Shown: one piece after another, positions 9,220 through 24,172 of the stretch | How the letters are laid out: each line of letters begins with the position of its first letter | How positions within the stretch are numbered: the stretch's first letter is position 1 | Assembly: GCA_036399055.1 (NCBI GenBank) | Contig: DASWNX010000019.1 | Coordinates: 1 to 55,118 of the forward strand | Source: Jatrophihabitans sp. | GTDB taxonomy: Bacteria > Actinomycetota > Actinomycetes > Mycobacteriales > Jatrophihabitantaceae | Direction: 5' to 3' | Length of the DNA: 55,118 nucleotides | Notes under the pieces: generated by a model | Databases searched by the model: none | What the model saw: only the letters and a program-made list of their open reading frames with translations | Told to the model about the DNA's origin: nothing | Made by a program: the position numbers and the translations under genes

Positions 9220-9927
9220 TCAGGCGCCTGCCTGGGTGCCGAGCCGCTTGAAGATCTCGTCGATCCAGTCGCTGTCGTGGCTGTCTACCACCGGGAAGCC
9301 CTCGGCCCACGGTCCCTGCCAGTGCACCGAGATGCCCGGGTTGTTGGCCTCCCAGCCGTCCGCCAGAAACAGGTGCGGGCTGCCCTTGACCTCGTCGCCG
9401 CTGCTGACCGCGAAGTCGTTCATCACGTCGATCCGGTGCCGGCCGGTGTCCAGCGCCTCGGTCAGAGCCGCCACGTCCAGACCGGGAACCTCAGCCGCGA
9501 TGTCGAGGATGACCTGCCGGTGGGCGATCGAGCGCGAGGAGCTCCAGAACCCGCGGCGCAGGGCCAGGTCGAGCTCGGCGGAGAGGTTGAGGCTCTGCTC
9601 CTTCGCCGCCAGCACGGCCTCGGCGGCCAGCAGCACGGTGGACGGGTAAGCCCATTCCGGCCCGGTCCACAGCCGGAACTGGGCGTCCGGCTCGATCTGC
9701 CCCAGCCCGACCGCCTCGCTGTCGGTGCCCGGCCGCGGGTGCGGGCCGTTGAACAGCTCCAGCGGGAAGCAGTGGTGATCGATCTGAACCTGCTCGGTCA
9801 GTCCTGCCTTCTCGCGAGCCGCCATCAGCCGGTGGATGGCCACGTAGGCAAACGGGCAGAGCAGGTCGGACCAGATCTGGACGGTGTTCGGGGCGGGGAC
9901 GGGCCGCTGCGCAACGGAGTGCGTCAT
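9220..9927 (-). CDS. DsbA-family thioredoxin-fold protein (paralogue 1)
   Basis: 235 aa, a DsbA/FrnE/2-hydroxychromene-2-carboxylate isomerase-like thioredoxin fold with a helical insert. The active-site position reads WSDLLCPFAYVA (residues 19-30): only the first Cys of CxxC remains (CPFA), which suggests a glutathione/mycothiol-transferase or isomerase type of chemistry rather than disulfide oxidation. Late segments SGDEVKGSPHLFLADG and NPGISVHW form the usual cis-Pro region (SPHLF). There is no signal peptide, so it is cytoplasmic. It overlaps the PPOX gene by four bases and resembles the other DsbA-like gene of the same operon (10412-11146), so the two are duplicates. It is the last gene of the MarR operon. 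Confidence 0.87.
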   Translation of the reverse strand: MTHSVAQRPVPAPNTVQIWSDLLCPFAYVAIHRLMAAREKAGLTEQVQIDHHCFPLELFNGPHPRPGTDSEAVGLGQIEPDAQFRLWTGPEWAYPSTVLLAAEAVLAAKEQSLNLSAELDLALRRGFWSSSRSIAHRQVILDIAAEVPGLDVAALTEALDTGRHRIDVMNDFAVSSGDEVKGSPHLFLADGWEANNPGISVHWQGPWAEGFPVVDSHDSDWIDEIFKRLGTQAGA

Positions 9928-10415
9928 TTAGGTTCCTCGTGGTCGGTGCCGGATGGGTTGGAGGAGAAGCGGATGGGCCGCAGCAGCACCGCGGTGCGAC
10001 GCTCGGCGACCATCACCTGGTCATACTCCTCAAGGTCGGAATGCTTGCCCCCCGCGGCGTGATAGATGTCGCGGAACAGTTGGGCGTGCTCACTGGCCGG
10101 AAAGCCGTCGAGCTGGTCGTCGGGACCGACCAGCTCGACGGCTCCGGTGACGCCGATCCACTCCCACCCTGACCGGAACACCAGTTGAGCCCGGGGGGAT
10201 CGACGAAGATTGGCAAGCTTGGCAGTGCTGCCGCGCGATACGAAGGCGAGCACCGATTCACCGGTGACAGGGTGGGGCATGATGCCCACGTTCACAATGC
10301 AGACGCTGGGATCGCGATCGCCGCGATGGGTGACCAGCACGGCGAGGTACCGCTCCGCTGCGGCAAGCTGCTCGACCTGGCGTAAGCCCTCGGCCGTGTC
10401 GATGGCCGTGGTCAT
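9924..10415 (-). CDS. PPOX-class split-barrel flavin/F420 protein (Rv1155-like)
   Basis: 163 aa. Segments LAVLVTHRGDRDPSVCIVNV, FVSRGSTAKLANLRRSPRAQLVF and WEWIGVTGAVELVGPDD (together residues 22-110) follow the pyridoxamine-5-phosphate-oxidase-like split barrel. The RGSTAKLANLRRSPRA stretch is typical of actinobacterial F420/FMN-binding Rv1155-type proteins. The family includes Ddn, which reduces the nitroimidazole prodrug pretomanid, and the Nim proteins, which reduce nitroimidazoles to amines. Here it lies between two DsbA-like paralogues, with 4-base overlaps on both sides, under a MarR regulator and 2 kb from an azomycin-type operon. A role in detoxifying or finishing the nitro compound is inference. 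Cofactor choice (F420, FMN or haem) is not decidable by eye. Confidence 0.85.
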   Translation of the reverse strand: MTTAIDTAEGLRQVEQLAAAERYLAVLVTHRGDRDPSVCIVNVGIMPHPVTGESVLAFVSRGSTAKLANLRRSPRAQLVFRSGWEWIGVTGAVELVGPDDQLDGFPASEHAQLFRDIYHAAGGKHSDLEEYDQVMVAERRTAVLLRPIRFSSNPSGTDHEEPK

Positions 10416-11146
10416 CGGGCCAGCTCCGCGGCGTGCAGCAGCAACTCTTCATAGATCGCCGGAGCGTCAGAGTCGATCACCGGGTAGCCCTCGCCGAAGC
10501 CGCCATTGATCCAGTGCGCCTCGACGCCTGGGTTGGCGGCGTTGACGCCGTCGCTGAGGAAGATGTGCGGGCTGCAGATCACCTTGTCATCGCGAGCGCT
10601 CTCGAATTGGGCGAAGACAGCCGCCCGTGCCGAGCCGCTGTCCAAGTGCTTGGCCAGCTCGGAGACGTCCAACGCCGAGGTGGACTCGGCGATGTCAAGG
10701 ATCTCGTGCCGCATGGTGATGCAGCGGCTCTGCTGCCAGAACGCTCGGCGCAACGCCAGGTCGAGCGCCTCGCTGGCATGCCAGCCCTGCGCCTTGGCAG
10801 CCTGGACCGCCTCGAGCGCGGGCAACGTGCTCACCGGGTAGCGCCAGTCCGGCCCCTGCCACAACCGCCAGCCTGCTTCGGGTTCGAGGGCGCCGACCAC
10901 GGCGATCTCGGAGTCGACGCCCGGCCGCTCGTTGACCGACTTGTTGAACAGCTCCAGAGGGAACGCCCGGTGGTCGAAGTGGATGAGCTCCTCAAGGCCG
11001 AGCCGGCTGCGGGTCTGGTGCAGCCGGTACACCGCGACGTGCGCGAACGAGCAGTTGAGGTCGGTGTACACCGCGATGGTGTTGGCGGCGACCGGCAATC
11101 GAGGATCGTCGCGGGCGACGGTGGACATGTCCAAACTTGCGCTCAT
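10412..11146 (-). CDS. DsbA-family thioredoxin-fold protein (paralogue 2)
   Basis: 244 aa. It has the same plan as paralogue 1: AVYTDLNCSFAHVAVYRLH (residues 25-43) has a CSFA active site in place of CxxC. It is followed by FDHRAFPLELFNKSVNERPG, a middle helical domain (LDLALRRAFWQQSRCI) and a cis-Pro region with VICSPHIFLSDG and NPGVEAHW. The retention of one Cys in both copies argues for a shared thiol function such as conjugation, isomerisation or peroxide chemistry with mycothiol. Cytoplasmic, no signal peptide. It overlaps both the MarR stop and the PPOX start by ATGA, so the four genes are translationally coupled. Confidence 0.87.
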   Translation of the reverse strand: MSASLDMSTVARDDPRLPVAANTIAVYTDLNCSFAHVAVYRLHQTRSRLGLEELIHFDHRAFPLELFNKSVNERPGVDSEIAVVGALEPEAGWRLWQGPDWRYPVSTLPALEAVQAAKAQGWHASEALDLALRRAFWQQSRCITMRHEILDIAESTSALDVSELAKHLDSGSARAAVFAQFESARDDKVICSPHIFLSDGVNAANPGVEAHWINGGFGEGYPVIDSDAPAIYEELLLHAAELAR

Positions 11147-11646
11147 TGACTGTGGCCTTTCAATCTGCCGCCCGCGAGAACCGGCAATGGGAATGAACCT
11201 GACGGCGCGGGCGAGGCCGCTACCTTGCCGAGGGCCGCTGTCAGCACCCGCCGTTCGGCGTCAGTCAGATGGGAGGAGAAATGCTCTTCTATGCCGCGCA
11301 GGTAGCGCGGCGCGGTCTCTCGAAAGCTCTTGCGGCCGACATCGGTGATCTTGGCCCACACCACCCGGCGATCGTCGTCGTCGCGGACCTTCGCCACGAG
11401 GTTGTCGATGACCATCTCGTCAACCAGCCGGGAGACCCGCGTCCGGCTCAGGACCACCCGGTCGGACAACTCCTGCATGCGCAGTCTGCCCTCTGGCGCC
11501 GCGTTCAGCTCGAGCAGGACGTCGTACCAGGTGAGCGGGATGCTGCCGGAGGCTTCGAGGTCCGCGTCGATGGCTCGCATCGCTGCGTTGTAGGCGAGCA
11601 ACATGGCTCGCCACGCCTGCAGTCCGTCGACGTCGCGGGGGGTCAT
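11143..11646 (-). CDS. MarR-family transcriptional regulator
   Basis: 167 aa from the ATG at 11646 (MTPRDVDGLQAW). A longer reading to 11685 would run through the palindromic operator and is rejected. The winged helix is clear: LTWYDVLLELNAAPEGRLRM, then LSDRVVLSRTRVSRLVDEM (recognition helix) and a wing with VRDDDDRRVVWAKITDVGR, where DDRR is the usual DNA-contacting Asp/Arg motif. MarR proteins are dimeric repressors released by phenolic or electrophilic ligands or by oxidation. This one has no Cys in the visible sequence, so release by ligand is more likely than thiol oxidation. A perfect 26-bp palindrome begins 16 bases upstream of its start, indicating autoregulation. It heads the PPOX/DsbA-like operon. 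Confidence 0.93.
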   Translation of the reverse strand: MTPRDVDGLQAWRAMLLAYNAAMRAIDADLEASGSIPLTWYDVLLELNAAPEGRLRMQELSDRVVLSRTRVSRLVDEMVIDNLVAKVRDDDDRRVVWAKITDVGRKSFRETAPRYLRGIEEHFSSHLTDAERRVLTAALGKVAASPAPSGSFPLPVLAGGRLKGHSQ

Positions 11647-11662
11647 GGTCACAGCATATAAC

Positions 11663-11688
11663 CAGATGCGTGCGTACGCACGCATCTG
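11663..11688. promoter_or_regulatory. perfect 26-bp palindrome, probable MarR operator O1
   Basis: The left half CAGATGCGTGCGT is followed directly by its exact reverse complement. It lies 16 bases before the MarR start codon, in the 5' untranslated or promoter region of the leftward operon. MarR proteins characteristically bind such palindromes in divergent promoters. Confidence 0.82.
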
Positions 11689-11732
11689 CTTTTCTCATCA
11701 CAGCCACCTACGTTTTCAACGTCAAACCGGTA

Positions 11733-11748
11733 GCGTGCGTTCGCACGC
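11733..11748. promoter_or_regulatory. second operator-like palindrome O2 upstream of the YceI gene
   Basis: GCGTGCG-TT-CGCACGC has 7-bp arms. The right side, CGCACGCATCTG (11742-11753), is identical to the right half of O1. It lies 63 bases before the YceI start, so the MarR protein probably also represses the rightward YceI gene. Confidence 0.75.
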
Positions 11749-11810
11749 ATCTGTTAATGTGACCGGGCTATTCGCTCCTATAGGAGCAACCATGCCGCAG
11801 AGGAGATTCC

Positions 11811-12386
11811 ATGACAACTGCCAGTGCGGTCACCCGCACGGTTGATGGGCACGAGGTGCCGATTGCCGGCACATGGAACATCGATCCCGGCCACGCCCTC
11901 GTAGGTTTTCTTGGCCGGCACTTCATGTTGACCAAGGTCCGGGGACGGTTCACCCGCGTCGAGGGCAGTGTGGTCGTCGCCGAGAACCCGCAGGAGAGCA
12001 AGGTGAGCGTGACGATCGACATGACGTCGATCAACAGCGGTGATGACACGCGGGACAACCATCTGAAGTCCGAGGACTTCTTCGACATAGAGAAGTTCCC
12101 CAAGGCCTCCTTCGTCTCGGACTCGGTCACCTTCGACGGTGAGAACGGCTCGATGACCGGCGCCCTGACCATCAAAGACATCACCCGGCCGGTCACCCTT
12201 CAGTTCAGCTACGTCGGTTACGCCCGCGATCCGTGGGACAACGACCGCGCCATCTTCTCGGCCCACGGCCGGGTCAACCGCGAAGACTGGAACCTGACCT
12301 GGAACATGCCGCTGGCCAACGGCGGCCTGTTGGTCTCCAAGGAGATCGAGCTGGAAATCGAAGTGGAAACCATCCTGGAGCGCTGA
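11811..12386 (+). CDS. YceI-family lipid/isoprenoid-binding protein
   Basis: 191 aa. It has the YceI lipocalin-like barrel: AGTWNIDPGHALVGFLGRHF (residues 20-39), VRGRFTRVEGSVVV, IDMTSINSGDDTRDNHLKSE (the conserved 'R..HL.s.dfFd' region) and FDIEKFPKASFVSD, then GALTIKDITRPVTLQF. There is no signal peptide, so this is a cytoplasmic member. YceI proteins bind long isoprenoids or fatty amides, and cytoplasmic actinobacterial members are often stress-induced. AGAGGAG precedes the ATG by five bases. It is divergent from marR and shares its operator sequence. It could sequester a lipophilic quinone or product, but the ligand is unknown. Confidence 0.93.
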   Translation: MTTASAVTRTVDGHEVPIAGTWNIDPGHALVGFLGRHFMLTKVRGRFTRVEGSVVVAENPQESKVSVTIDMTSINSGDDTRDNHLKSEDFFDIEKFPKASFVSDSVTFDGENGSMTGALTIKDITRPVTLQFSYVGYARDPWDNDRAIFSAHGRVNREDWNLTWNMPLANGGLLVSKEIELEIEVETILER

Positions 12387-12393
12387 ACACACG

Positions 12394-12428
12394 GCGCCGG
12401 ACGCGGCTCTGCCGTAATGCCGGCGCCT
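12394..12428 (+). terminator. hairpin after the YceI gene
   Basis: GGCGCCGG (12394-12401) pairs with CCGGCGCC (12421-12428). An inner CGGC/GCCG pair sits inside the loop. It begins eight bases after the YceI stop codon and fits a GC-rich terminator without a T-tract. Confidence 0.6.
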
Positions 12429-12495
12429 ACCTGCTCGACTGCTGTGAGCTAAAGCTCGACTGTGTGAAGTGTGGACGGGGAACAAGGTGACTGCC

Positions 12496-12532
12496 GGCGG
12501 TCCGGTGCATCCCGCACCACGTGAGGACCGCC
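12496..12532 (+). promoter_or_regulatory. nested hairpin in the leader of the roh-like operon
   Basis: An outer GGCGGTCC/GGACCGCC stem encloses an inner GGTGC/GCACC stem with a 5-base loop and a 6-base bulge. It ends 43 bases before the rohP-like start codon. It could be a transcription terminator insulating the operon, or a leader structure. No riboswitch class is recognised. Confidence 0.4.
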
Positions 12533-12575
12533 ATTGGTGTTGTCCCGCCCCTTCCCCCCACATTTGGAGTGCGTA

Positions 12576-13769
12576 GTGAGCATCGAAGTAGCGGTCCAGG
12601 ACGTGTTGTCAGACGACGTGCGGGACCTGACCCAGCACGAGATCCAGGCTCTGAAGATGCGCCATAACCTGGCCGACGCGCACACCCATCAGAGCCAGTC
12701 AGCCGACCAGCGCGAGATCGTCAGCCGCTTGCCTGAGCTGTGGTACGAGGCGGAGCGCAAGACCCAGGCCGAGTGCGAGCAGCGGTTCCTCGACGCTTTC
12801 TTCCGGTTGCACGGTCAGCCCACCGCGCGCGCCAAGAACAAGACAATGCTGTCCTACGCGGCCTCCATCTCGACCCTCGTCGCGGCGATGTACCTCCGGC
12901 GTGAGCGGATGTCGGTCACCCTCATCGAGCCGTGTTTCGACAACCTGCACGATGTGCTGGCCAACATGGGCGTCCCGCTCTACCCGATTGACGAGTCGGC
13001 CTTCGCCGACGTCGGTTCGATCTATGACAACCTGCGTCGGCAGGTGAAGACCGACGCGCTGTTCCTGGTTGACCCGAACAACCCGACCGGCAGCAGCCTG
13101 CTCCAGCACGGCACCGAAGGCTTCGCCGAGGTCATCCGGTATTGCCAGGACTACCGCAAGCTGCTGCTGATCGACTTCTGCTTCGCGTCGTTCACCCTGC
13201 ACGGCACCGGTCCGAGCAGGTTCGACATCTACGAGATGCTCGAGGACTCCCAGATCAGCTACCTCGCCATCGAGGACACCGGCAAGACCTGGCCGGTGCA
13301 AGATGCCAAGTGCGCGATGTTGACGCCCAGTGACGACATCAAGCGGGTCGTGTTCGACCTGCACACCAGCGTCCTGCTCAACGTCTCGCCCTTTGTGCTC
13401 AACATGCTCACCTGCTACGTCGAGGCATCCATCAAGGACAAGATGCACTCGGTCTGCAGCCTGCTTGAGCAGAACCGGGAAACCGCCCGGACACTGCTCG
13501 ACGGGACCGCGCTGACCTATATGGAACCAGTGTGCAACGTCAGCGTCGCGTGGTTCCGCATCGACCACCCGACCCTCACCGCCACCGAGCTGCAACGGCT
13601 GGGCGCCAAGAGCGACGTCTACATCCTTCCCGGCAAGTTCTTCCTCTGGAGCCAGCCGAGCAAGGGCGACCAGTACATCCGGCTCGCGCTGGCCCGCGAC
13701 GCCGACATGTTCACCAGCGCGGTGACCAACCTTCGTGCCACCCTCGACCTCTACCGCGATGAGCACTGA
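12576..13769 (+). CDS. rohP: PLP-dependent L-arginine oxidase/hydroxylase, MppP/RohP-like
   Basis: 397 aa from the GTG at 12576, which has GGAG six bases before it. Fold-type I aminotransferase-like. Lys237 in EDTGKTWP is the PLP Schiff-base lysine. NNPTG holds Asn169, and Asp200 (LLID) faces the pyridine nitrogen. The N-terminus ([19 protein letters not shown], then LPELWYEAE) and the IEDTGK-WP block closely resemble, from memory, MppP and RohP. These O2-dependent enzymes oxidise L-Arg to 4-hydroxy-2-ketoarginine rather than transaminate. MppP serves enduracididine and RohP serves azomycin biosynthesis. The next gene starts inside its last codons, and the order that follows (unknown protein, DapA-type, HDO, Rieske) matches the azomycin pathway. 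A plain aminotransferase is the main alternative. Confidence 0.88.
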
Positions 13770-14259
13770 GTTCGTCGATGCCAGCTCCTTCCTCGGCATG
13801 AACAGCGCCGACGAGGATGAACGGCTGGCATGCGTGCGGTTCTTCGCGGCCCGGCTGGACGGCTCGCTCGGCATCAGCGCCGAGCAGGTCGGCGTGTGCG
13901 ATGACACGGTGTGGGGATTCGGCCGGCACGAGCAAGACCTTTACTACCCGTTTATGGATAATCTGCACACCGAGCTGCGCTTTGACCGGTTGGCCTACAC
14001 CGAGGCCGACCTGGTCGCGGCGCTGGACGGGGACCGGCTCGAACTCTCGATCACCGAGCGCCTGACCCTGGCCATGGTGATCAACCGCGACGCGACGCTC
14101 TACACCCTCAACCCGCGGCTGCTGGCCCTCGCCGACGCGCCGGTCCGGCATCCGGCCACCGACGCCGCTCACGACCAGGCCTTTCCTGCCTGGCTCGACC
14201 AGCTCTACCAGGACTCGTTGGTGCTGCGGGTGGCGCCAGCGGAGGTGCTGACGCCATGA
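13759..14259 (+). CDS. uncharacterised 166-aa protein, candidate cyclodehydratase (RohQ position)
   Basis: 166 aa. The ATG at 13759 overlaps the rohP-like stop by 11 bases, and its own stop overlaps the DapA-type gene by four. I recognise no family. Visible features are an acidic N-terminus, a helix-rich middle ([16 protein letters not shown]), a Tyr/His/Glu-rich segment ([20 protein letters not shown]) and a late [20 protein letters not shown] region. No signal peptide or membrane segment. In the azomycin pathway one step, cyclisation with dehydration of guanidinoacetaldehyde to 2-aminoimidazole, needs a separate enzyme (RohQ). By position and coupling this gene is the candidate, but I cannot confirm homology. 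Confidence 0.8.
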
Positions 14260-15053
14260 TCGCCTCGGGCGTGCTGGTCCCGCTGGTGACGCCGATCGAC
14301 GCGACGGGCGCTGTGTCCTCCACAGACGTTCGCTCGTTGACCGATTTCCTGCGGCCGCACGCCGATGCCCTGGTGCCCGCGCTGAGCACCGGTGAGGGCG
14401 GGCTGCTCAACGGCCAGCAGTGGAGCGCCATGGTCGCCGCCACCGTCGAGCACTCAGGTGGGTTGCCGGTGTATGCCGGCGCGCTCAGTTCCACCACCGC
14501 CGGCGTGATCGAGAAGGCCGAGCGCGCCGCCGACCTCGGCGCGGCCGCGGTGGTCGCGACGACGCCGTACGGCATAGCCGTGACCCAGCAGCAGATGGCG
14601 CAGCACTATGCCGAAGTCTGCGCGGCCAGTCCGATACCGGTGATCGTCTACGACGAGCTGGAGCAATCGGGCAACTCCCTGGAGCTGAGCACGCTGCTGG
14701 ACATCTGCCAGTTGCCCGGCGTGGTGGCGGTCAAGGACTCTCAGGGCGACCTGCAGCACTGGACCGCGCTTGTCCAGGCGCGCCCTGACGTGGCGATGTG
14801 GCTAGGCCGTGAGGAGCTCATCGGCCACGCGGTCGGAGCGGACGGCGTGCTGCTGGCCGTGTGTAACCTGATCCCCGAGCTCTGCCAGCGCTGGTGGCGA
14901 GGCAAGGAGCCGGCGTTGGCTGAGCGGATCGGTGAAGTGTGCCTGGGCCACTCGCTGTTCGACCCGGAATGGTTCATCCACGTCAAGACGGCCCTGCGAG
15001 CGGCCGGGCGCATCGCTCACGACGAACCGGTATCACAGATGAGGACGACATGA
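14256..15053 (+). CDS. rohR: DapA-family aldolase, probable 4-hydroxy-2-ketoarginine retro-aldolase
   Basis: 265 aa, a class I pyruvate aldolase of the dihydrodipicolinate synthase/NAL family. Lys160 (GVVAVKDSQGD) is the Schiff-base lysine and Tyr132 (VIVYDELEQSG) the proton-relay tyrosine. STGEGG (residues 44-49) replaces the usual GTTGE substrate loop. It is slightly shorter than the usual 290 residues. In azomycin biosynthesis the corresponding enzyme splits 4-hydroxy-2-ketoarginine into pyruvate and guanidinoacetaldehyde, which fits a DapA-type lyase. ATGA overlaps join it to the genes on both sides. Without that context it could act on any 2-keto-4-hydroxy acid. Confidence 0.86.
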   Translation: MIASGVLVPLVTPIDATGAVSSTDVRSLTDFLRPHADALVPALSTGEGGLLNGQQWSAMVAATVEHSGGLPVYAGALSSTTAGVIEKAERAADLGAAAVVATTPYGIAVTQQQMAQHYAEVCAASPIPVIVYDELEQSGNSLELSTLLDICQLPGVVAVKDSQGDLQHWTALVQARPDVAMWLGREELIGHAVGADGVLLAVCNLIPELCQRWWRGKEPALAERIGEVCLGHSLFDPEWFIHVKTALRAAGRIAHDEPVSQMRTT

Positions 15054-15892
15054 CCCTCGCGATCGAGACGGCTCCGTTGCGCAGCCTGTTCCTGTTGAAC
15101 CGCAGCGTCCCCGACCCCGCGGTCTACGCCCGGATCGCCGAGATCGAGCAACCGTGGATCGACGGCTTGCTGGCTGAGCTGGAGGCAGAGACCGACCCGG
15201 TCCCCTCGCGCGCCGCTTGGCTGGATCTGCTGGACGCACAGCTCCAGGCTGAAGCCGCGGATCTGGGCAGCCTGGCCTATCTGGCGCACGAGGCCAGCTA
15301 CGAGGAGTTCCGCACCTTCGTCCTGGAGTTCGGGCCCGACGGCCTCACCGAGGCGCAGAACTTCTTCCCCGCCATCGCGCGGGTTCCGATCAAGGCGCAG
15401 TTGGCCCTGATGCGCGTTCTGATCGACGAGTTCGGCTGCGGCAACCTGCAGCAGTCGCACTCCTACCTCTACATCAAGTTGCTTGCCGAACTCGGCCTGC
15501 CGACCGAGCTCGACCAAGTGCTGGAGCACACCTCCGAGCCCACCTTCGCCTTCATGAACGCCTTCTACTGGCTCGCCCAGCGGGCGCCGCACGTCGAGTA
15601 CTTCCTGGGCGCGCTGGCCTACCTGGAGGCGAGCATTCCGCCGGCGTTCTCGCTGCTGGCCGAAGGCTGCCTGCGGCTGGGCATCCAGAACGGCGCCTAC
15701 TACTCCGAGCACGTGCACATCGACGCCTTCCACATGAAGGAGATGCAGACCGCTATCCGCGAGCACGAGGTGGTGCACGGCCTGGACGCCACCAAGGTCT
15801 GGATCGGGGCGAAGCTGCTGTCCCGGGTGCTGGGCGAGGCAGTGGAGAACGCGGTCGAGCGGGCACGGAGCACTGCCGATGCCGGCCGCTGA
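15050..15892 (+). CDS. rohS: haem-oxygenase-like diiron oxidase (HDO), probable 2-aminoimidazole N-oxygenase
   Basis: 280 aa from the ATG overlapping the previous stop. Six candidate iron ligands can be placed: Glu101 (LTEAQNFF), Glu127 and His137 (IDEFGCGNLQQSHSYL), and His221, Asp225 and His228 (EHVHIDAFH). The spacings 26, 10, 4 and 3 equal those I remember for SznF (E189, E215, H225, H311, D315, H318), the N-oxygenase that founded the HDO group. RohS is an HDO that turns the amine of 2-aminoimidazole into a nitro group. HDOs are soluble helical proteins that assemble Fe2 and O2. Its coupling to a Rieske gene and an arginine-oxidase gene supports this role. The substrate is inferred from context. 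Confidence 0.87.
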   Translation: MTLAIETAPLRSLFLLNRSVPDPAVYARIAEIEQPWIDGLLAELEAETDPVPSRAAWLDLLDAQLQAEAADLGSLAYLAHEASYEEFRTFVLEFGPDGLTEAQNFFPAIARVPIKAQLALMRVLIDEFGCGNLQQSHSYLYIKLLAELGLPTELDQVLEHTSEPTFAFMNAFYWLAQRAPHVEYFLGALAYLEASIPPAFSLLAEGCLRLGIQNGAYYSEHVHIDAFHMKEMQTAIREHEVVHGLDATKVWIGAKLLSRVLGEAVENAVERARSTADAGR

Positions 15893-16130
15893 GCAGCCGA
15901 CGACGCAGGCACTGCCCGACGAGAAGGTGCTGGTCACGGCGGGCGAGCGCAGGTTCGTCATCGACGAGGCCTGCCCGCACCGCAAAGGCCGGCTGGTCTT
16001 CGCCCATGTCAACGCGAACACGCTGCGGATCACCTGCCCGCTGCACCGTTCCACCTATGACCTGACCGACGGCCACCAGATCTCTGGACCGGCCGCATCC
16101 TGCGCTTTGAACGTGGAAGAGGTCCGATGA
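15879..16130 (+). CDS. rohT: small Rieske [2Fe-2S] protein
   Basis: 83 aa. The Rieske cluster motif is complete: Cys32-Pro-His34 and Cys53-Pro-Leu-His56 (ACPHRKG and TCPLHRSTYDL). The rest is a minimal beta-sandwich, shorter than the usual 100-110 residues, with no transmembrane anchor. It would pass electrons to a redox enzyme, most simply the HDO encoded immediately upstream, whose stop it overlaps by 14 bases. A Rieske gene accompanies the N-oxygenase in azomycin-type operons. Its ATGA overlap with the methyltransferase gene shows tight coupling. Confidence 0.9.
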   Translation: MPAAEQPTTQALPDEKVLVTAGERRFVIDEACPHRKGRLVFAHVNANTLRITCPLHRSTYDLTDGHQISGPAASCALNVEEVR

Positions 16131-17167
16131 CCGATCGCGGGTACTACGTCGAGGAGCCATGGCTGCCGGTGTCGGAGAGCCTGACCGAGTGGGGTCAGGA
16201 CTTCCATGCCCTGTTGCTCAACGACCAGCTGCGCATGCGGACCTTCCGCGCCGCGATCGCCGAGGTGGTCCGCCCGGGCGCTGTCGTGGTCGATCTGGGC
16301 ACCGGAACCGGCATCCTCGCGCAGTGGGCGCTGGAGTTCGGCGCCGCCCGGGTGTACGGCATCGACTTCAACGCCGAGGTGCTGGCCGACGCCACCGAGC
16401 GGCTGGCCGCGGCCGGCTACCGGGACAGGTTCATCCCGGTCCGCGGGCTGTCCTATGACATCGAGCTTCCCGAGCAGGCTTCGGTGATCCTGTCCGAGAC
16501 GCTCGGCAACCTCGCCGACAATGAGAGCTGCGTTCCGATCCTCGCCGACGCGCGACGCCGGTTCCTCGCTCCGGGCGGCGTCCTGCTGCCCTCGAAGGTC
16601 GAGAGCTACCTGGTTCCGGTGGCAGCCACCGACGCCCACCGCAAGGTGGCGCAGTGTCAGGTCCGGGGCGGGGACGAGTCGCTGTCGGTTGAGCGCCAGC
16701 TGGCCCAACTCGGCGCGGCCAGCCCGTTCGACACCTACTACGACGCGGTGATCGGCTGGGACCGGCACCTGGCCACGCCTCGGTTGGCTCGCGAGTACCA
16801 GTTCCTCGAGGCAGAGACCGACGAATACGAGATAGCGCTGTCGTTCACCGCCCGCCAGCACGGCACGCTCACCGGGTTCAAGGGCTACTTCATCGCAGAC
16901 CTCTCCCCGTCGACGGCGATGGACATCTCCGGAGATGACATCGAAGCCGGCCAGACCTCGGACAGCTGGAAACACTGCTACCTGCCGATTCGCCTGCCCA
17001 TCGAGGTTCGCCCCGATGATCGGATCAGCCTTCGCTTCGCCCGCAAGCGCACCGGCGACGGCTTCGGCCAGTCCTACCGCTGGGCCGGCGAGGTGCACCG
17101 GGACTCAGACCAGGTGGGCGGCTTCGAGCAGAGCTCGGGCGCCGGGCCGGTGCTGCAGGACGCCTGA
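16127..17167 (+). CDS. SAM-dependent methyltransferase, PRMT-like
   Basis: 346 aa. Motif I reads VVDLGTGTGILAQWALEFGA (residues 46-65), and post-I reads VYGIDFNAEVLADA. A double-Glu-type loop (ILSETLGNLADNE, near residues 122-134) is followed by FLAPGGVLLPSKVESYLVPV. This order, with a C-terminal beta-barrel, is that of protein arginine N-methyltransferases and their small-molecule relatives. The loop has SETxG in place of the usual SExMG. It is the last gene of the roh-like operon and overlaps the Rieske gene by four bases. A guanidine, 2-aminoimidazole or nitroimidazole nitrogen is a plausible methyl acceptor, since PRMT pockets bind guanidino groups. I do not recall a methyltransferase as part of the basic azomycin pathway. 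Confidence 0.85.
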   Translation: MTDRGYYVEEPWLPVSESLTEWGQDFHALLLNDQLRMRTFRAAIAEVVRPGAVVVDLGTGTGILAQWALEFGAARVYGIDFNAEVLADATERLAAAGYRDRFIPVRGLSYDIELPEQASVILSETLGNLADNESCVPILADARRRFLAPGGVLLPSKVESYLVPVAATDAHRKVAQCQVRGGDESLSVERQLAQLGAASPFDTYYDAVIGWDRHLATPRLAREYQFLEAETDEYEIALSFTARQHGTLTGFKGYFIADLSPSTAMDISGDDIEAGQTSDSWKHCYLPIRLPIEVRPDDRISLRFARKRTGDGFGQSYRWAGEVHRDSDQVGGFEQSSGAGPVLQDA

Positions 17168-17177
17168 CCAGCGGGTG

Positions 17178-17204
17178 GGTGAGCCCCTGGCGGTAGCGCT
17201 CACC
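17178..17204. terminator. weak hairpin between convergent genes
   Basis: GGTGAGC and GCTCACC form a 7-bp stem with a 13-base loop between the methyltransferase and dehydratase-like genes. The right arm overlaps the stop codon of the latter. There is no T-tract. Confidence 0.4.
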
Positions 17205-19614
17205 GCGCGCCGTCGACGGCGACCATCCGGAACTCGCAGCTGTAGCGCTCGTCGGCGGCATCGACCAGCCACAACTGATCCAGGTCGGGCAACATCTCGG
17301 TCAACCGGATCGTCGCCGCAGGGTCGGCCTCGGCGGTGCGCCGGATCAGCTTGGTCAGCAGGTTCACCAGCGCCAGGCTGCTGAAGTCGACCGCCGTGGG
17401 CTTGTCCTCGACCGGCACGCTGAGAAAGCAGCGCTCGGGCAGGCCGCACGATGCCCGCCAGCGCCGCGCCAGCAGATATCGCTCGCTCTCGTCCTTCGCC
17501 CACACCCAGCCGGCCTCGGACACCGGCAGCCGCCACGACTCCCGGCTCAGCACCAACCGGTCGATCGTCACCCGTGGCTGGCGCCCCTGGATCGACATCG
17601 GCCGGAACGCGTTGATCGCCGCGCCGGCCAGGAACTCGCTGAGCACTTCGAGCAGGTCATATTCCACGCCCGTGCTCCGTGACCGCACCACCAGTCCCGA
17701 TGATCCGGGGTGAGCCGTTGACGAGGTGACGGCCAGAGTTGACGAGGTGACGGCCAGATCAGCCGCGGCCAGCACCGGGGCCGGGGGCCAGGCCGAGTCC
17801 ACCCACTCCGACCGCGACCAGTACGTCCAGTCCGGGGACAGCAACGCCGAGGGCGGCGCGCCACGCGAGGAGACCATCATCGAGTTCTTCGTGGGGATGG
17901 CGTAGATCCGCCGGCCGGCGTGATCGGCCTCAGCCCAGGCCAGCAACCGCTCCGGATCATCGTGCTGCTCGACGAACAGCCTGCCCTCCAGGGTGTTGAC
18001 CGACATGTGCAGCTCACCCAGCACCAGCAGGAAGTCCCCGTCGGCCACCGCCTGCGCGCTGCCGGCGGCCAGCATCACGTCCGGGCTGTGGTGGATCGCG
18101 GTGCTCCAGGTCGGCTCGTCGGTGACGGCGAACGCCGCTGCCGCCGAAGCCGAGATCCCGGCGTGACTGACCTGCTGGCGCCTGACCTGCTGGTGGCCGG
18201 TCTGCTGGTGGCCGGTCTGCTGGCGCCCGCCTTCGGCGTCCGTCGCGAGCACCTCGCGCCAGCGGCGCTGGAACTCCCGCAGGATCTGCTCGACCGGCTC
18301 GGCAGGTGTGCGGCCGACGCTGAACAGCACCGGCGCGGCCAGCCTGAGCAAGGTGGCCAGCGGCAACTCGTCCTCGCCGGTCCGTTCGCGTTCAGCCTGG
18401 TAGAGCTGGGAGAACACCTCTCGGTAGGTGAGCGCGAACTGCTGCAACAGCCACCGAGCGCTGTCCAGCACGAGCGCCAAGGGGCCGGACAGCGCGTCCA
18501 GCACCGCCGCGCCGATCTCGATCCGGGCGTCGCGCACGGCGTCCTGGTACAGCAGGGTGCGTCCGGCGTAGCTGGTGCCCGGCCTGCGGACGCCGGACTG
18601 CCCGGTGTGCTCGACGAACAGCTCGCGTAGGGCCTCGGTCGCGGCCAGCACGGCCTCGGCGTCACCGGAGGCCGCCGCCACCGCGTCCCGGGCGGCGACC
18701 AGTTCTGTCAATGGCACTAAGGCGCTCGCGCGCACCTGCGGATCGGTGATCAGCTCGAGCTGAGCCGCCAGGGTGCGCTCGGGGTAGGCCTCGATCGGCC
18801 CGATCGGCGCCAGCATGACCAGGCCTAGCCGGTCGAGCTCGATCAGAGCCGCCGGCACGTCCGCCAAGTCACCCACGTCCGTCACGTCACCGCTCAGATG
18901 GTCGCTCAACTGCGCGACCGTCCGGCTGCCGTCGGCCAGCGCGAACAGCCGCGCCTGCAGTGGTGTCAGCTCCCGGCTGTCCCCGCTCGGGTGGCGAACC
19001 ATGGCGCCTTCGAGCTGGCAGGCGGTGTCCCGGCGCGGCCGCAACCACGCCAGCATGCCCGGCTGGTCGGCGATCGCGGCCGCCAGCTCGTCGATTCCCC
19101 AGCTCTCGAAGTAGGTGGTGCGGCGCGCCAGCAGCTGAGCCCCCGGACGGACGGACAACCCGGCGACGCCGCGGTCTGCCCTGGCCCAGCCGACCGGGCC
19201 GAAGAACCCGATGGTCTCGTTCTTCAACGTGTAGCGCTGCAGGTAGCTGACGATCGCCTGCTCGTGGTTGCGCCCGCGCGCGTTGCGCGGCTCACCGCGT
19301 GCGATCTTGTCCAGGCAGGCCGGCACCAGCGCCGGGTTCTGCCAGGCGATCGCCTCGCGGAACCGCTGATCATTGGCCAGCGCCCGGACAGCTTGGGACA
19401 GCCGCCGGACCGCCGCGGCGTAGGCGTCCTGGTATGCGGCCTGCTTGTCGTCGGAGGCAGCGTCGGCCGCGGCGGCCAGCGAGGGATCGCGCAGCGTCAG
19501 CGCCAGCCGCGCCGGAAAGCCGGCGCCGCGCACCGCGATGTCAGGCCAGATGCTCCAGGCCGAGTCGCCGAGCGGAATCCGGTCCGACGGGGTCATCGGG
19601 TGCGCCGGGGTCAT
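17200..19614 (-). CDS. lantibiotic dehydratase-like protein (LanB N-terminal domain, possible PEARL)
   Basis: 804 aa from the ATG at 19614. A second ATG (19596) or an upstream GTG is also possible because no clear ribosome site is seen. The longer open frame to 20451 lies antisense to another gene and is rejected. Diagnostic segments: NHEQAIVSYLQRYTLKNETIG, then FFGPVGWARAD (near residues 120-150), RRTTYFESWGIDELAAAI, LVLGELHMSVNTLEG, and a C-terminal SLALVNLLTKLIRR. This is the tRNA-dependent glutamylation-type domain of class I lantipeptide dehydratases. I see no SpaB_C elimination domain. Such stand-alone proteins include split LanBs and PEARLs, which add an amino acid to the C-terminus of a carrier peptide from aminoacyl-tRNA. 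No lanthipeptide cyclase is present in the window. Confidence 0.85.
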   Translation of the reverse strand: MTPAHPMTPSDRIPLGDSAWSIWPDIAVRGAGFPARLALTLRDPSLAAAADAASDDKQAAYQDAYAAAVRRLSQAVRALANDQRFREAIAWQNPALVPACLDKIARGEPRNARGRNHEQAIVSYLQRYTLKNETIGFFGPVGWARADRGVAGLSVRPGAQLLARRTTYFESWGIDELAAAIADQPGMLAWLRPRRDTACQLEGAMVRHPSGDSRELTPLQARLFALADGSRTVAQLSDHLSGDVTDVGDLADVPAALIELDRLGLVMLAPIGPIEAYPERTLAAQLELITDPQVRASALVPLTELVAARDAVAAASGDAEAVLAATEALRELFVEHTGQSGVRRPGTSYAGRTLLYQDAVRDARIEIGAAVLDALSGPLALVLDSARWLLQQFALTYREVFSQLYQAERERTGEDELPLATLLRLAAPVLFSVGRTPAEPVEQILREFQRRWREVLATDAEGGRQQTGHQQTGHQQVRRQQVSHAGISASAAAAFAVTDEPTWSTAIHHSPDVMLAAGSAQAVADGDFLLVLGELHMSVNTLEGRLFVEQHDDPERLLAWAEADHAGRRIYAIPTKNSMMVSSRGAPPSALLSPDWTYWSRSEWVDSAWPPAPVLAAADLAVTSSTLAVTSSTAHPGSSGLVVRSRSTGVEYDLLEVLSEFLAGAAINAFRPMSIQGRQPRVTIDRLVLSRESWRLPVSEAGWVWAKDESERYLLARRWRASCGLPERCFLSVPVEDKPTAVDFSSLALVNLLTKLIRRTAEADPAATIRLTEMLPDLDQLWLVDAADERYSCEFRMVAVDGAR
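17717..17758. repeat. 21-bp tandem duplication in the LanB-like gene
   Basis: Two identical 21-bp units (17717-17737 and 17738-17758) add seven residues twice (LAVTSST-like). In frame. Confidence 0.8.
18187..18216. repeat. 15-bp tandem duplication in the LanB-like gene
   Basis: Two units of CTGCTGGTGGCCGGT encode a Gln-rich QQTGH repeat. Degenerate copies on both sides extend it to QQVRRQQV. Confidence 0.75.
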
Positions 19615-19626
19615 CGGGTGCGCCTG
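19591..19626. repeat. 18-bp tandem duplication at the LanB-like start
   Basis: Two near-identical 18-bp units each carry an ATG in frame (MTPAHP and MTPSDR), so the duplication creates two possible starts for the dehydratase-like gene. Confidence 0.7.
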
Positions 19627-19761
19627 GTCATCGAGTGCGACGGGGTCACCTGGCACGCAGGAGGTAGGTCCAGTCAGGCACCCGGCAAAGGTACCGCCGA
19701 GAAGGCGCCGCCGGAGGTGAAGACCTGACGGAACCAGGGCGGTGACATTACGATTCCGCAG

Positions 19762-20601
19762 GTGACCGATCCACCGGCCGGCGCCGCGCCTTTCGAGCAG
19801 TCGCTGGCCTGTCCAGGGATGCCAGCGTGGCTGCCGCCGGTGCTCAGGACGCTGCACGACGGCCAGAACCCCGCCACCGCGGCGCGCTGGGGCTCGCGTG
19901 TCAACGATTCGCTGCACGCCCTTGGCCGCACCCGGGGTGAAGCGCACCCGCCGTGGGAGGTGGTGCACGACTGGCAGGCCCGCACCGTCGTCCCGCTGAT
20001 GCTGCAGGCGTGCCAGCCGCACACGTGCGAGCCGGCCGCCTGCGAGCCGGCGGCAGCGCTGCGACAGCTGCACGTCCGAGCGGCGGCAGGTGAGCGGATC
20101 GGCCAGGGGCAGTGGCAGGCGGTGCTCGAGCCGGCGCTGCATGAGTTGTACCGGCACGCCTACGGCTACGCCAGCGCCTACGCCACCGCGCACGCCAGCG
20201 CCAGCGCCTACGCCAGCGCCAATGACTTCAGCCAGAGCGGAGCAGTCCAGTTCGCGAACTCTTACGCCGAGCTGAGCACCGAGGCGAACCGGCAGTCCTA
20301 CGCCCGGTCCAACGCCGTCGCCAACGCCGCTGTGCTGGCGGTGGCTTACGCCTCGGGTGAGGATCAGGCCTACGCCGAGGCCTATCCGTTCGCCCTGCTG
20401 CACGCCTGCGCGCACGCGTTCGCCAACCGTCAGAGACCGGCCGGCGAGCAAGCGGGACTCGCCGGCGCCGAACCCGCAGGCGAGCAGTCCACCCCCGAGG
20501 TCGAGCGCCGGGCCGCCTACACCCGGCTGGCCGACGGCCTGGCCGACAGCCTCGACAACCTCGCCAGCCTCGACATTGTGCGGCCTGAATCCGCGCGTTG
20601 A
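19762..20601 (+). CDS. hypothetical Ala/Tyr-rich repeat protein beside the LanB-like gene
   Basis: 279 aa from a GTG start; no strong ribosome site is visible. No family recognised. The N-terminal 120 residues are mixed and contain Cys-rich HTCEPAACEPAAAL (a small duplication). Residues about 132-155 form an Ala/Tyr/Ser repeat (YGYASAYATAHASASAYASA). A second Ala-rich segment (SNAVANAAVLAVAYASGEDQ) follows. Codon use shows strong G/C third positions, so it is a real gene rather than a shadow of the opposite strand. No signal peptide or clear membrane helix. It is divergent from the dehydratase-like gene with a 147-bp gap and may be its functional partner. That is inference from location only. 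Confidence 0.7.
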   Translation: MTDPPAGAAPFEQSLACPGMPAWLPPVLRTLHDGQNPATAARWGSRVNDSLHALGRTRGEAHPPWEVVHDWQARTVVPLMLQACQPHTCEPAACEPAAALRQLHVRAAAGERIGQGQWQAVLEPALHELYRHAYGYASAYATAHASASAYASANDFSQSGAVQFANSYAELSTEANRQSYARSNAVANAAVLAVAYASGEDQAYAEAYPFALLHACAHAFANRQRPAGEQAGLAGAEPAGEQSTPEVERRAAYTRLADGLADSLDNLASLDIVRPESAR

Positions 20602-20634
20602 CTCAGCCGCAGCGCGGATTCAGGCCGCACAATG
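20574..20634. terminator. long bidirectional hairpin terminator
   Basis: A perfect 23-bp inverted repeat (20574-20596 and 20612-20634) has a 15-base loop. The left arm forms the last codons of the Ala/Tyr-rich gene, and the stop codon is in the loop. The right arm ends 14 bases before the stop of the convergent dioxygenase gene. Confidence 0.85.
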
Positions 20635-20648
20635 CGGCACGGGCAGCC

Positions 20649-21524
20649 TCAGGCGGTGGGGCGGGCGCCGTTGATCGACACCCGCTGGCCGTAGCGGGCA
20701 TGCGGGTAGTAGTCCCAGATCGCGTGGTGCTGGGTGCAGCGGTTGTCCCAGAACACCAGGGTGTTGGGAGCCCAGCGGACCCGGCAGCTCAGCAGCGGCT
20801 TGGTGGCGACCAGGCCGAACAGCAGATCCAGCAGCGCCCTGCTCTCCTCGGCGGACAGCTGCGTGATGTGCGTGGTGAACCCGGGATTGACGAATAGCAA
20901 CTTGCGGCCGGTGTCGGGATGGCGCACGACCACCGGGTGCTCGCTCTTGGGGACGACGTAGTCCGCCGGCGGCTGGTGTCCCTGCCACGGCACCAGCCCG
21001 TCGTGCACCGCGGTCAAGCCGTCCAGAAAGCCGCGCATGGTCGGCGACAGCATCTCGTAGGCCAGGTGCATGTTGGCGAACATGGTGTCGCCGCCGCTGC
21101 CGATGGCCGGTGGTTTGGTGAGGTAGAGCATCGAACCCAGGGACGGCTCGGCGTCGGCGGTGCCGTCGGTGTGCCAGTCGTTGCCGTCGACGAAGGTGGA
21201 GTCCTGGTCGGCCCTGATGTCCAGGATCTCCGGGTCGCGGTCGTCGCCCTCGGCGCGCTGCTGCCGGCGCAGCTCGCCGAAGTGGGCGGCGAACCGCTTG
21301 TGGTCCTCAGGGCTCAGGAGCTGGTCGCGAAACACCAGCACGTGATGGGTTCCGAAGGCGTGCTTCACCTCCGCCAGCTGCTCCTCGGACAGTCTCTGGG
21401 ACAGGTCGATTCCTGACACCTCGGCGCCGATCACCGGCGTCAGCGAGTGCACCGAGATGTGCTGATAATTCTCAGGCGGGCGGGTGGTCAACCGCTGCGC
21501 CGCGGCGAGGGTGAATTGGTCCAT
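20649..21524 (-). CDS. TauD/TfdA-type Fe(II)/2-oxoglutarate dioxygenase
   Basis: 291 aa from the ATG at 21524, with AAAGGA nine bases upstream. A TTG two codons earlier is too close to that site. The iron triad is visible: His118 and Asp120 (DWHTDGT) and His266 (WDNRCTQHHA), with Arg281 (RYGQRVSI) for the 2-oxoglutarate carboxylate. The N-terminus (IGAEVSGIDLSQRLSEEQ) is typical of TauD/TfdA. These enzymes hydroxylate, desaturate or cleave using O2 and 2-oxoglutarate. It is the last gene of the long leftward NRPS operon, 52 bases after the SGNH-like gene, so it probably hydroxylates an amino-acid building block or the finished peptide. The exact substrate is unknown. Confidence 0.92.
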   Translation of the reverse strand: MDQFTLAAAQRLTTRPPENYQHISVHSLTPVIGAEVSGIDLSQRLSEEQLAEVKHAFGTHHVLVFRDQLLSPEDHKRFAAHFGELRRQQRAEGDDRDPEILDIRADQDSTFVDGNDWHTDGTADAEPSLGSMLYLTKPPAIGSGGDTMFANMHLAYEMLSPTMRGFLDGLTAVHDGLVPWQGHQPPADYVVPKSEHPVVVRHPDTGRKLLFVNPGFTTHITQLSAEESRALLDLLFGLVATKPLLSCRVRWAPNTLVFWDNRCTQHHAIWDYYPHARYGQRVSINGARPTA

Positions 21525-21576
21525 GCTCAACAGTCCTTTCGGTGGATCGTCAGTCGAGGATGGTGCGGGTCGCCGG

Positions 21577-22272
21577 TCACAGCCCGCGATCCAGCAAGTC
21601 GGTGAGGATCAGCCGGCCGAAGGCCAGGTTGCCGTGAATCGGGTCGCCGGCCTCGCACAGCTCAGGCCGCTGAAAACCGGTCGCGTCGGTGACCCGCGCG
21701 CGCAGGTCCACCAGCTCCACGCCCCACTCGGCCAGCGTGCCCGCGATGATGTCCTGCGCGGCCAGGAACACCTGCGGGTCAGCCATCGCCGGCACCCGCT
21801 GCGGGGGGAGCGCCGCCAGCACCCGCAGCCCCAGGCCACCGGCGTGACGGTAGAAGGCCAGCGCGTCGCCGGCCATCACCCGGATGATCTCGGCGAAGAG
21901 CCGGCTGGTCAGGAATCCGGGCGCGAAGTCCCCGTCGGCTGAACGGTAGAACTGCCAGTTCTCGGTCGTGGCGAAGGTGTGCACGTTGAAGCCGAAGGTC
22001 GAGACCACCGGAACGTCGAGCTGACCGAGGGCCGTCACCCCCAGCTCGTCCAGAAAGCCCCGGTAGTAGGCGTGGGGCTGGGAGTCGCGAAACGCCACGT
22101 CGTCCTCACGCAGCTCAAGGAAGCCGGCGTTGAAGTCGCGTCCGGAGCCGATCGGCCCGCCGCGGAAGCTGATGCCGGCCGCCTTCGCCGCCCGGCCGAT
22201 CACCCCGGCGTGCGAGTCGCCCAGCAGCAGGAATCTAGCGGGCGTTGTAGTAGTCGAGCACTGCGTCGTCAC
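21577..22272 (-). CDS. SGNH-hydrolase-like protein
   Basis: 231 aa from a GTG inside the preceding gene (38-base overlap). The N-terminus FLLLGDSHAGVIG (residues 14-26) carries the Gly-Asp-Ser block of SGNH/GDSL hydrolases. A late Asp-x-x-His (GDPIHGNLAFG, near residue 215) can complete the catalytic pair. The protein is shorter than typical esterases and lacks a signal peptide. SGNH-like proteins next to GSCFA proteins are often acyl-transfer or acyl-hydrolysis partners. Here it could act on a peptide ester, thioester or acyl group. The function is uncertain and the alternative is a non-catalytic relative. Confidence 0.72.
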   Translation of the reverse strand: MTTQCSTTTTPARFLLLGDSHAGVIGRAAKAAGISFRGGPIGSGRDFNAGFLELREDDVAFRDSQPHAYYRGFLDELGVTALGQLDVPVVSTFGFNVHTFATTENWQFYRSADGDFAPGFLTSRLFAEIIRVMAGDALAFYRHAGGLGLRVLAALPPQRVPAMADPQVFLAAQDIIAGTLAEWGVELVDLRARVTDATGFQRPELCEAGDPIHGNLAFGRLILTDLLDRGL

Positions 22273-23299: not shown

Positions 23300-24114
23300 G
23301 GCGTCAGCCGCGGCTGGGTGGCCGGCCAGTCGAGGTCGGCCCTCGGATCGTCCACGTCCTTCGCCGCGACGTCGCCCTTCGCCGCGACGTCGGCTAGCAG
23401 GGCGGCGATGCTCTGCTGATGGGCGTTGAGGAAGAAGTGGTCGCCCGAGTAGAGGCGCCGTCGCACCGGCCGGCTGCTCTCCAGGGACCAGCCGGCGGCT
23501 CGGTCGAGCTCGACATGGGGGTCCTCCTCGCCCAGCAGCAGGTGGATCGGCAGGTCCAGCGGCGGCTCGGGGCGATAGACGTAGAGCTCGCTCAGGGCGA
23601 AGTCAGCACGCAGCCCTGGCAGCACCAGCTCCATCAGCTCCTGGTTGCCCAGCAGGTCCGTGGCCGTGCCGTTGTACTCACCCAGCGCCGCGATCAGCTC
23701 GGCGTCGCCCAGCTCGTGCAACCGGCGCCGGACCGCCCGGGTCTGCGGGGCCTCGGCGCCGGACACCCAGAGGCTGGTCGGCTCGGGCAACCCGCCCCGG
23801 CGTAGCTGGCGAGCCACCTCAAAGGCCACCAGCGCGCCGAGGCTGTGGCCGAAGAAGGCGAACGGCCGGTCGGCCAAGCCGGCTACCGCCCGAGTCAGCC
23901 GGGCCACCAGCTCGTCCATGTCCGCCAGCGGCGGGTCGAACAGCCGCACGCCGCGAGCGGGGAGCTGGGCGATCCGCAGCTCCAGCCGCGGTCCGAGCAG
24001 CGCCTGCCAGGGCAGGAAGGTGTTGGCGTTGCCGCCGGCGAAGGGAAAGAGGAACAGCCGCATGGCGCCGGTCGGGTTGGCGCCGGCGGTGAACCAGGCT
24101 TCGTCGGTGTCCAC
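23296..24114 (-). CDS. type II thioesterase
   Basis: 272 aa from the GTG at 24114, with AAGGA nine bases before it. A further start at 24186 would overlap the NRPS end and has no such support. Alpha/beta-hydrolase: LFLFPFAGGNANTF (oxyanion region), Ser91 in FFGHSLGAL, an Asp in LLGEEDPHVE and His in YSGDHFFLNAH complete the usual triad. External thioesterases remove wrong or stalled acyl groups from carrier proteins. It follows the last NRPS-PKS gene by 58 bases. The C-terminal tail has an 18-bp in-frame duplication (DVAAKG). Confidence 0.93.
   Translation of the reverse strand: MDTDEAWFTAGANPTGAMRLFLFPFAGGNANTFLPWQALLGPRLELRIAQLPARGVRLFDPPLADMDELVARLTRAVAGLADRPFAFFGHSLGALVAFEVARQLRRGGLPEPTSLWVSGAEAPQTRAVRRRLHELGDAELIAALGEYNGTATDLLGNQELMELVLPGLRADFALSELYVYRPEPPLDLPIHLLLGEEDPHVELDRAAGWSLESSRPVRRRLYSGDHFFLNAHQQSIAALLADVAAKGDVAAKDVDDPRADLDWPATQPRLTP
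23357..23392. repeat. 18-bp tandem duplication in the thioesterase tail
   Basis: Two units ending TTCGCCGCGACGTCG encode DVAAKG-type repeats near the C-terminus. In frame. Confidence 0.75.
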
Positions 24115-24172
24115 GTGACTCTTTCCTTCAGGGAGCGGTTCTTCAACACAGGCCGCAGCTCTCAGCACACGG

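Follow-up and report, generated by a model that had tools for sequence, protein, structure and literature searches.

The roh operon and its sixth gene

The window analysed here, a stretch of 55,118 nucleotides from Jatrophihabitans sp. (assembly GCA_036399055.1, contig DASWNX010000019.1), carries six + strand genes at positions 12576-17167, with consecutive overlaps of 4-14 bases and one stop apiece. On sequence grounds, they constitute an azomycin (2-nitroimidazole)-type rohPQRST operon plus a methyltransferase gene, designated MT below. The original prediction, made from the DNA alone, had recognised both the six overlapping genes and the azomycin type. The genes are as follows.

12576..13769, + strand: RohP, O2- and pyridoxal phosphate (PLP)-dependent L-arginine oxidase (GTG start, 397 aa; 6c3a match, K237)
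13759..14259, + strand: RohQ, cyclodehydratase, DUF6190 (ATG start, 166 aa; PF19689, 9c5w match)
14256..15053, + strand: RohR, retro-aldolase of the dihydrodipicolinate synthase (DHDPS) family (265 aa; PF00701, K160)
15050..15892, + strand: RohS, haem-oxygenase-like diiron (HDO) N-oxygenase with a probable ligand set of three histidines and four carboxylates (3H/4C) (280 aa; 9pfx match, conserved ligands)
15879..16130, + strand: RohT, minimal Rieske [2Fe-2S] protein (83 aa; PF00355, C-H pairs)
16127..17167, + strand: MT, methyltransferase of the protein arginine methyltransferase (PRMT) fold, sixth gene (346 aa; PRMT5_C, fold model, recurrence in operons)

Within the MppP/RohP family of O2-dependent PLP arginine oxidases, RohP was close to the solved RohP chain 6c3a, to which it aligned over 378 residues (phmmer, E = 1.1e-173), and far from MppP (1.1e-49). 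An assignment as an ordinary aminotransferase was rejected, since the scores for Aminotran_1_2 (9.1e-7) and the best NCBIfam aminotransferase (1.9e-9) were far weaker than that for 6c3a; RohP groups with RohP. The 166-aa reading frame that the original prediction had correctly delimited but called unknown is RohQ (PF19689, 1e-56; PDB 9c5w, 'Cyclodehydratase RohQ', 3.9e-23). RohS matched PbrRohS (9pfx, 6.5e-49) and, more distantly, SznF (7.6e-14). RohR matched PF00701 (2.7e-36), and a RohR match was found at all loci holding RohS. RohT matched PF00355 (1.5e-10), had conserved C32-P-H34 and C53-P-L-H56 pairs and resembled the Rieske proteins that occupy the same operon place in relatives. The HDO and Rieske proteins are thus related to RohS and RohT, as originally predicted. 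Orthology was assigned from solved Roh structures for RohP, RohQ and RohS, and from family and position only for RohR and RohT. The PLP lysine K237 of RohP and the Schiff-base lysine K160 of RohR were located where they had been predicted; of the catalytic residues of rohPQRST, these two lysines, the diiron ligands and the Rieske C-H pairs are present. The five enzymes and their order on a single strand, P-Q-R-S-T, are those of the azomycin operon of S. cattleya, S. eurocidicus and Pseudomonas, in which L-Arg is converted by RohP, RohR and RohQ to 2-aminoimidazole and by RohS to azomycin (PMC10724926; this paper, PMC11705231, PMC12713392 and PMC13108848 are cited throughout for the parts consulted). 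The described operon has five genes and no sixth, whereas MT in the window overlaps rohT.

For comparison, a RohP scan of the genome collection yielded 45 loci, 39 with RohS. These 39, L018, 20 further regions and the window gave 61 RohS rows, or 59 after removal of two duplicates, L153 (= L026) and L154 (= L028), which were excluded from group counts. The RohS residues E100, E126, H136, H220, D224 and H227 aligned with the six ligands of SznF, as predicted, and were kept in at least 97% of the 61 rows, window included (residue 1 is the codon at 15053; numbers rise by 1 if the ATG at 15050 is taken as the start). The alignment also paired a seventh conserved acid, E192, with SznF E281, which we take to be the extra glutamate ligand of that enzyme. 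RohS therefore probably belongs to the 3H/4C HDO N-oxygenases of the SznF type, with E192 as the putative seventh ligand. HDOs of this kind have three histidines and four carboxylates, and the extra glutamate was first recognised in SznF (PMC13108848).

The prediction of a PRMT-like methyltransferase was borne out by both sequence and fold. MT matched PRMT5_C (Pfam, 1.9e-9), and its closest PDB sequence was 3r0q, 'Probable protein arginine N-methyltransferase 4.2' (3.8e-22). An AlphaFold2 model built from 26 sequences (pLDDT 88.9) gave PRMT5, PRMT6, Hmt1 and PRMT1 as best Foldseek matches; the best 50 had E values of 3e-26 to 2e-24, TM scores of 0.70-0.76 by query and identities of 17-22%. Despite this low identity, MT shares with PRMT1, PRMT5 and PRMT6 the whole fold, the beta barrel and the double-E loop, whose residues E124 and E133 were invariant in the 26 sequences. 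The histidine of the THW loop is replaced in MT, where the motif is SDSW (SASW in one row).

Two types of roh operon

MT was present in 28 of the 59 non-duplicate roh operons compared, from Actinobacteria and Proteobacteria (MT+; the other 31 are MT-); these counts are not frequencies, since the 20 further regions were chosen deliberately (16 MT- and 4 MT+, being 20 of 32 Streptomyces copies). RohT and MT formed a single in-frame reading frame in 8 of the 28 MT+ rows. To follow MT outside roh operons, we used a set of 392 genomes from one genus (that of G352), inferred to be Streptomyces from G719 and G702, whose loci are identical in the tree to those of named Streptomyces. RohQ was found in 30 of these genomes, in 32 copies. 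Scoring the five best first-look candidates per genome, we found an MT ortholog (E <= 5.1e-94) in 12 genomes, each of which also has RohQ, with the two genes 1.9-2.2 kb apart, and in none of the 362 genomes without RohQ; the next PRMT-like proteins began at 5.7e-26. Among 13 roh-bearing Pseudomonas genomes, P. benzenivorans alone had MT, and none was found at E <= 1e-10 in the other 12. Distances of MT and of concatenated RohPQRS were strongly correlated (Mantel r 0.945, n = 27, 0/2000 permutations as high), also within Actinobacteria (0.970) and within Proteobacteria (0.938). As judged from genome co-occurrence and the RohT fusion, the role of MT is tied to the roh pathway, because the 362 RohQ-negative genomes have no MT and 8 of the 28 rows show the fusion.

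On the RohPQRS tree (56 rows; L142, L043, L046, L059 and L061 were omitted because their RohP or RohR reading was short, split or overlong), MT status changed 3 times, compared with a mean of 18.9 after shuffling (0/500 as low). Other genes also followed MT. A multicopper oxidase accompanied 20/28 MT+ operons and 0/31 MT- operons: in 15/18 actinobacterial MT+ rows it was a protein of ~1260 aa, and in 5/10 proteobacterial MT+ rows a shorter protein that BLAST did not relate to the first. DoxX and GST genes were each found with 10/10 proteobacterial MT+ operons and 0/14 MT- operons. The operons of the window and of L020 are without a multicopper oxidase, and the contig of L019 stops before one could show; a search of the window's own genome for the actinobacterial type, made without a positive control, found none. 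G700 and G719 each hold one MT+ and one MT- operon (L152/L136 and L153/L137, respectively). Thus, by these comparisons, there are two types of roh operon, distinguished by MT.

The RohP of 6c3a, presumably the S. cattleya protein, was nearest to MT+ RohPs: the first 20 of 45 rows were all 20 actinobacterial MT+ rows (duplicates included), with 82% identity to L021. By this placement the S. cattleya roh operon is of the MT+ type. That of S. eurocidicus probably is as well. The identities between the MT+ operon L152 of G700 and P. piscis L036 were 54.6, 38.2, 36.1, 40.6 and 40.3 for RohP to RohT (34.7 for RohR in the reverse direction), and those given for S. eurocidicus and Pseudomonas CMR5c are 54.6, 38.2, 36.1, 40.6 and 38.8 (PMC12713392). 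Because the two series are nearly identical, G700 is probably S. eurocidicus, with its MT+ operon as the reference roh operon and L136 as a second, MT- operon. Further, KaRohS, with which the original assay was done, has 64% identity to RohS of A. terrae and 78% to a RohS from Pseudonocardiales (PMC10724926). These values agree with actinobacterial MT+ rows, which show 59.6-88.9% identity to L025, but not with MT- rows (43.7-47.8%).

Possible role of MT

As MT recurs in the operon and is in some rows fused to RohT, a methylation step in the pathway is likely. We tentatively favour a reading in which the MT-type roh operon works independently of any nonribosomal peptide synthetase (NRPS). RohP, RohR and RohQ would convert L-arginine to 2-aminoimidazole, by homology with Roh enzymes for which this was shown elsewhere. 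MT, a putative S-adenosylmethionine-dependent methyltransferase in which the guanidinium-binding double-E loop is intact, would methylate 2-aminoimidazole before RohS acts. Both double-E glutamates are also retained by SznE-like methyltransferases adjoining SznF-like HDOs. RohS, probably fed electrons by RohT, would then oxidise the amine to a nitro group, and the end product would most likely be 1-methyl-2-nitroimidazole, instead of or beside azomycin.

The placing of the methylation step comes from RohS. Residues 191 and 195, which flank E192, were L/I in 28/28 MT+ rows and F/V in 28/31 MT- rows (duplicates removed). At 80% fixation, MT-linked fixed differences (L031 omitted, as also for RohP positions) were more frequent in RohS than in RohP, RohQ and RohR together, both in Actinobacteria (23/108 vs 27/346, Fisher p 0.0003) and in Proteobacteria (11/116 vs 10/301, p 0.02), although these counts ignore relatedness; at 90% fixation the actinobacterial p was 5e-5. 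RohQ had the fewest such differences (0/58 in Actinobacteria, 4/47 in Proteobacteria). The RohS differences, together with the RohT fusion, give a weak indication that the methyl group is added immediately ahead of RohS, to 2-aminoimidazole. Published kinetics are consistent with this: KaRohS acts on 2-aminoimidazole with a Km of 390 uM and a kcat of 0.23 per min, and KaRohS yielded 4.2 uM azomycin, KvRohS a trace and a Pseudonocardiales RohS 0 (PMC10724926, Table 1), as would be seen if another compound were the better substrate. If the reading is correct, the slow RohS assays would have a testable explanation.

Several observations weigh against this reading, beginning with the neglect of relatedness in the Fisher counts. 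The MT- operons L136, L146 and L150 have RohS of the L/I type, and the RohS contrast in Proteobacteria had a p of 0.08 at 90% fixation. Fixed sites in actinobacterial RohR (14/82) nearly reached the RohS level, with 0/65 in proteobacterial RohR, and RohP position 189 followed MT in both phyla (F in 25/28 MT+ rows, Y in 28/30 MT- rows). With just 3 changes of MT on the tree, too few independent pairs are available for significance (median p 0.25). MT is without the loop histidine of PRMTs and SznE (SDSW where SznE has SHW), and therefore its acceptor cannot be assigned from the motif. Finally, AtRohS makes 12.2 uM azomycin from plain 2-aminoimidazole (PMC10724926), and its source species, Actinokineospora terrae, has the MT+ operon L025; SaRohS, which is 59% identical to KaRohS and possibly also of the MT+ type, makes 15.2 uM (PMC10724926).

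MT might instead act at the start of the pathway. SznE methylates the guanidine of L-Arg before the HDO SznF acts (PMC11705231), and MT could likewise methylate N-omega of L-arginine first, after which RohP, RohR and RohQ would give a methylated 2-aminoimidazole for RohS to oxidise. The streptozotocin module resembles the window in its PRMT-fold methyltransferase, HDO N-oxygenase and adjoining Rieske protein, although RohS of the window has no cupin domain, and SznE/SznF/Rieske sets in L157 (SznF, 4.9e-287) and L158 (3.5e-219) suggest that these three form a recurring kit. The variation of actinobacterial RohR and of RohP position 189 with MT would also fit. However, MT (support 100/100) and SznE with L156 (100/99) formed separate clades, in a tree where SznE was represented by proxies, the PRMT-like genes adjoining SznF-like genes in L157 and L158. 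The SHW histidine retained by SznE is missing from MT. Given the separate clades and the SDSW motif, MT was rejected as a SznE ortholog. Further, 6c3a RohP has 82% identity with a RohP from an MT+ operon, and S. cattleya RohP reportedly turns over L-Arg; RohP of the MT+ type would thus accept unmethylated arginine. We consider arginine-first methylation rather unlikely. It is unlikely, too, that MT acts on a protein or another metabolite and is merely co-inherited with an operon that yields plain azomycin. By fold and by sequence, the top PDB matches of MT are to protein arginine methyltransferases, and the azomycin of Pseudomonas strains DF41 and CMR5c comes from a five-gene operon (PMC12713392), the CMR5c-like operon L036 being without MT; the restriction of MT to RohQ-positive genomes and the RohT fusion argue against such a role.

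Methylation of azomycin after RohS, for tailoring or self-protection, seems to us more unlikely still. MT closes the series of overlapping genes, and azomycin formation by AtRohS, whose source species has an MT+ operon, would be expected; however, the conserved acidic double-E loop would fit a guanidinium-like cation and not 2-nitroimidazole, and RohS would meet no methyl group, yet it differs between MT+ and MT- operons. Last, the original prediction had joined a nitro- or aminoimidazole to the thiazolyl peptide of the flanking NRPS and polyketide synthase (PKS) genes. These genes are indeed nearby, at 24173-47051 (the LanB-like gene starts at 17200, just after the end of MT at 17167, and NRPS1 at 24173), and the NRPS line includes an oxidase-like domain of the nitroreductase family. 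They lie on the strand opposite to the roh operon, and MT recurs without NRPS. None of the genes between MT and NRPS1 (LanB-like, orf19762, TauD, orf21577, GSCFA and TE; 17200-24186) was matched at the 27 other MT+ loci at E <= 1e-10, nor was the HDO trio of the window; NRPS1-3 were matched at one of the 27, L152, weakly (87-100 bits). Note that the relatives' flanks extend 0.6-6.9 kb past MT and NRPS1 begins 7.0 kb past it, so that the comparison covers the intervening genes and not a remote NRPS. A link between the NRPS and the roh operon is not supported, the NRPS/PKS genes look like mere neighbours, and a hybrid product is highly improbable; of the predicted fates of the imidazole, methylation stands as likely and joining to the NRPS product does not.

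The founding roh operons could themselves be six-gene operons for an N-methylated 2-nitroimidazole. Azomycin in those strains would then arise on the side, as an intermediate or from a second operon without MT, and two types with different products would coexist, even in one genome. The low rate of an actinobacterial RohS on 2-aminoimidazole would, on this view, stem from the wrong substrate. We regard this extension as more doubtful than the proposed methylation step. A sixth methyltransferase gene is not mentioned in PMC12713392, in whose consulted text 'methyl' occurs 0 times, or in the consulted parts of PMC10724926; the 2019 founding paper may mention one. Judging by titles, literature on azomycin and methyltransferases contained none on this operon and neither of these two roh papers, and a search for 2-nitroimidazole, biosynthetic gene cluster and methyltransferase found nothing. 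Literature found for 1-methyl-2-nitroimidazole as a natural product concerns synthesis or drugs, judging by the listing. Thus the conserved, sometimes RohT-fused methyltransferase was apparently overlooked, and it and the two operon types are apparently new. Azomycin stands at the origin of the nitroimidazoles, an important class of drugs. Should the sixth gene lead to a methylated nitroimidazole in nature, the described pathway would lack a natural product; an N-methyltransferase dedicated to a cyclic guanidine would be available, and the kit of PRMT, diiron N-oxygenase and Rieske protein would serve two N-oxidised classes, nitrosoureas and nitroimidazoles.

Surrounding genes and related loci

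Upstream of the operon lie five genes that form a conserved module with it (9220-17167).

9220..9927, - strand: DsbA-family protein 1 (PF01323; 64% to L019)
9924..10415, - strand: PNPOx-fold protein (PF01243; 2/18 actinobacterial MT+ rows, the window and L019)
10412..11146, - strand: DsbA-family protein 2 (PF01323; 17/18 actinobacterial MT+ and 16/17 MT- rows)
11143..11685, - strand: MarR-family regulator (PF12802; 16/18 actinobacterial MT+ vs 0/17 MT- rows)
11811..12386, + strand: YceI-like protein (PF04264, 1.5e-48; 16/18 actinobacterial MT+ rows, window included, vs 0/17 MT- rows)

At the 27 other MT+ loci, DsbA was found at 16, MarR at 15, YceI at 15 and PNPOx only at L019. This nearest relative repeats the order DsbA, PNPOx, DsbA, MarR, YceI, rohPQRST, MT with 50-75% identity, and its contig ends 638 bases past MT. 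The PNPOx fold includes nitroimidazole reductases, and the protein at 9924-10415 may serve self-protection. RohQ was found in none of 23 other genomes of the window's family (8 of the same genus; 12 of all 24 are at least 90% complete). On plasmids, 14 records matched RohS, all with <60% identity.

On the other side of the operon, 17200-19563 encodes a stand-alone lantibiotic dehydratase N-terminal domain protein, and the adjoining + strand ORF 19762-20601 had no Pfam match. NRPS3 (37932-47051) has a C-terminal nitroreductase-family domain (residues 2833-3006), which fits the predicted thiazolyl peptide; a thiazoline oxidase would be expected to have such a domain. Three tandem HDO genes lie at 47644-53568, upstream of the NRPS genes, preceded on the same strand by a NUDIX-thiamine pyrophosphate (TPP) enzyme fusion; for a peptide pathway this set is unusual. 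The window's own genome (4.5 Mb) has eleven PF14518 (HDO) matches, four of them on this contig.

Related sets occur elsewhere. L158, from a genome of the window's genus (G402), holds a streptozotocin-type SznE/SznF-like set with an ATP-grasp gene, and the genome of L019 has another HDO, Rieske and PRMT-like trio (L156:3011-5788), whose PRMT groups with the SznE-like rows. Further, L037, L038, L055 and L057, on cyanobacterial, Catenulispora and Uhrbacteria contigs, have RohP paired with RohR but no match to RohQ or RohS, and these pairs perhaps represent another use of the same chemistry.

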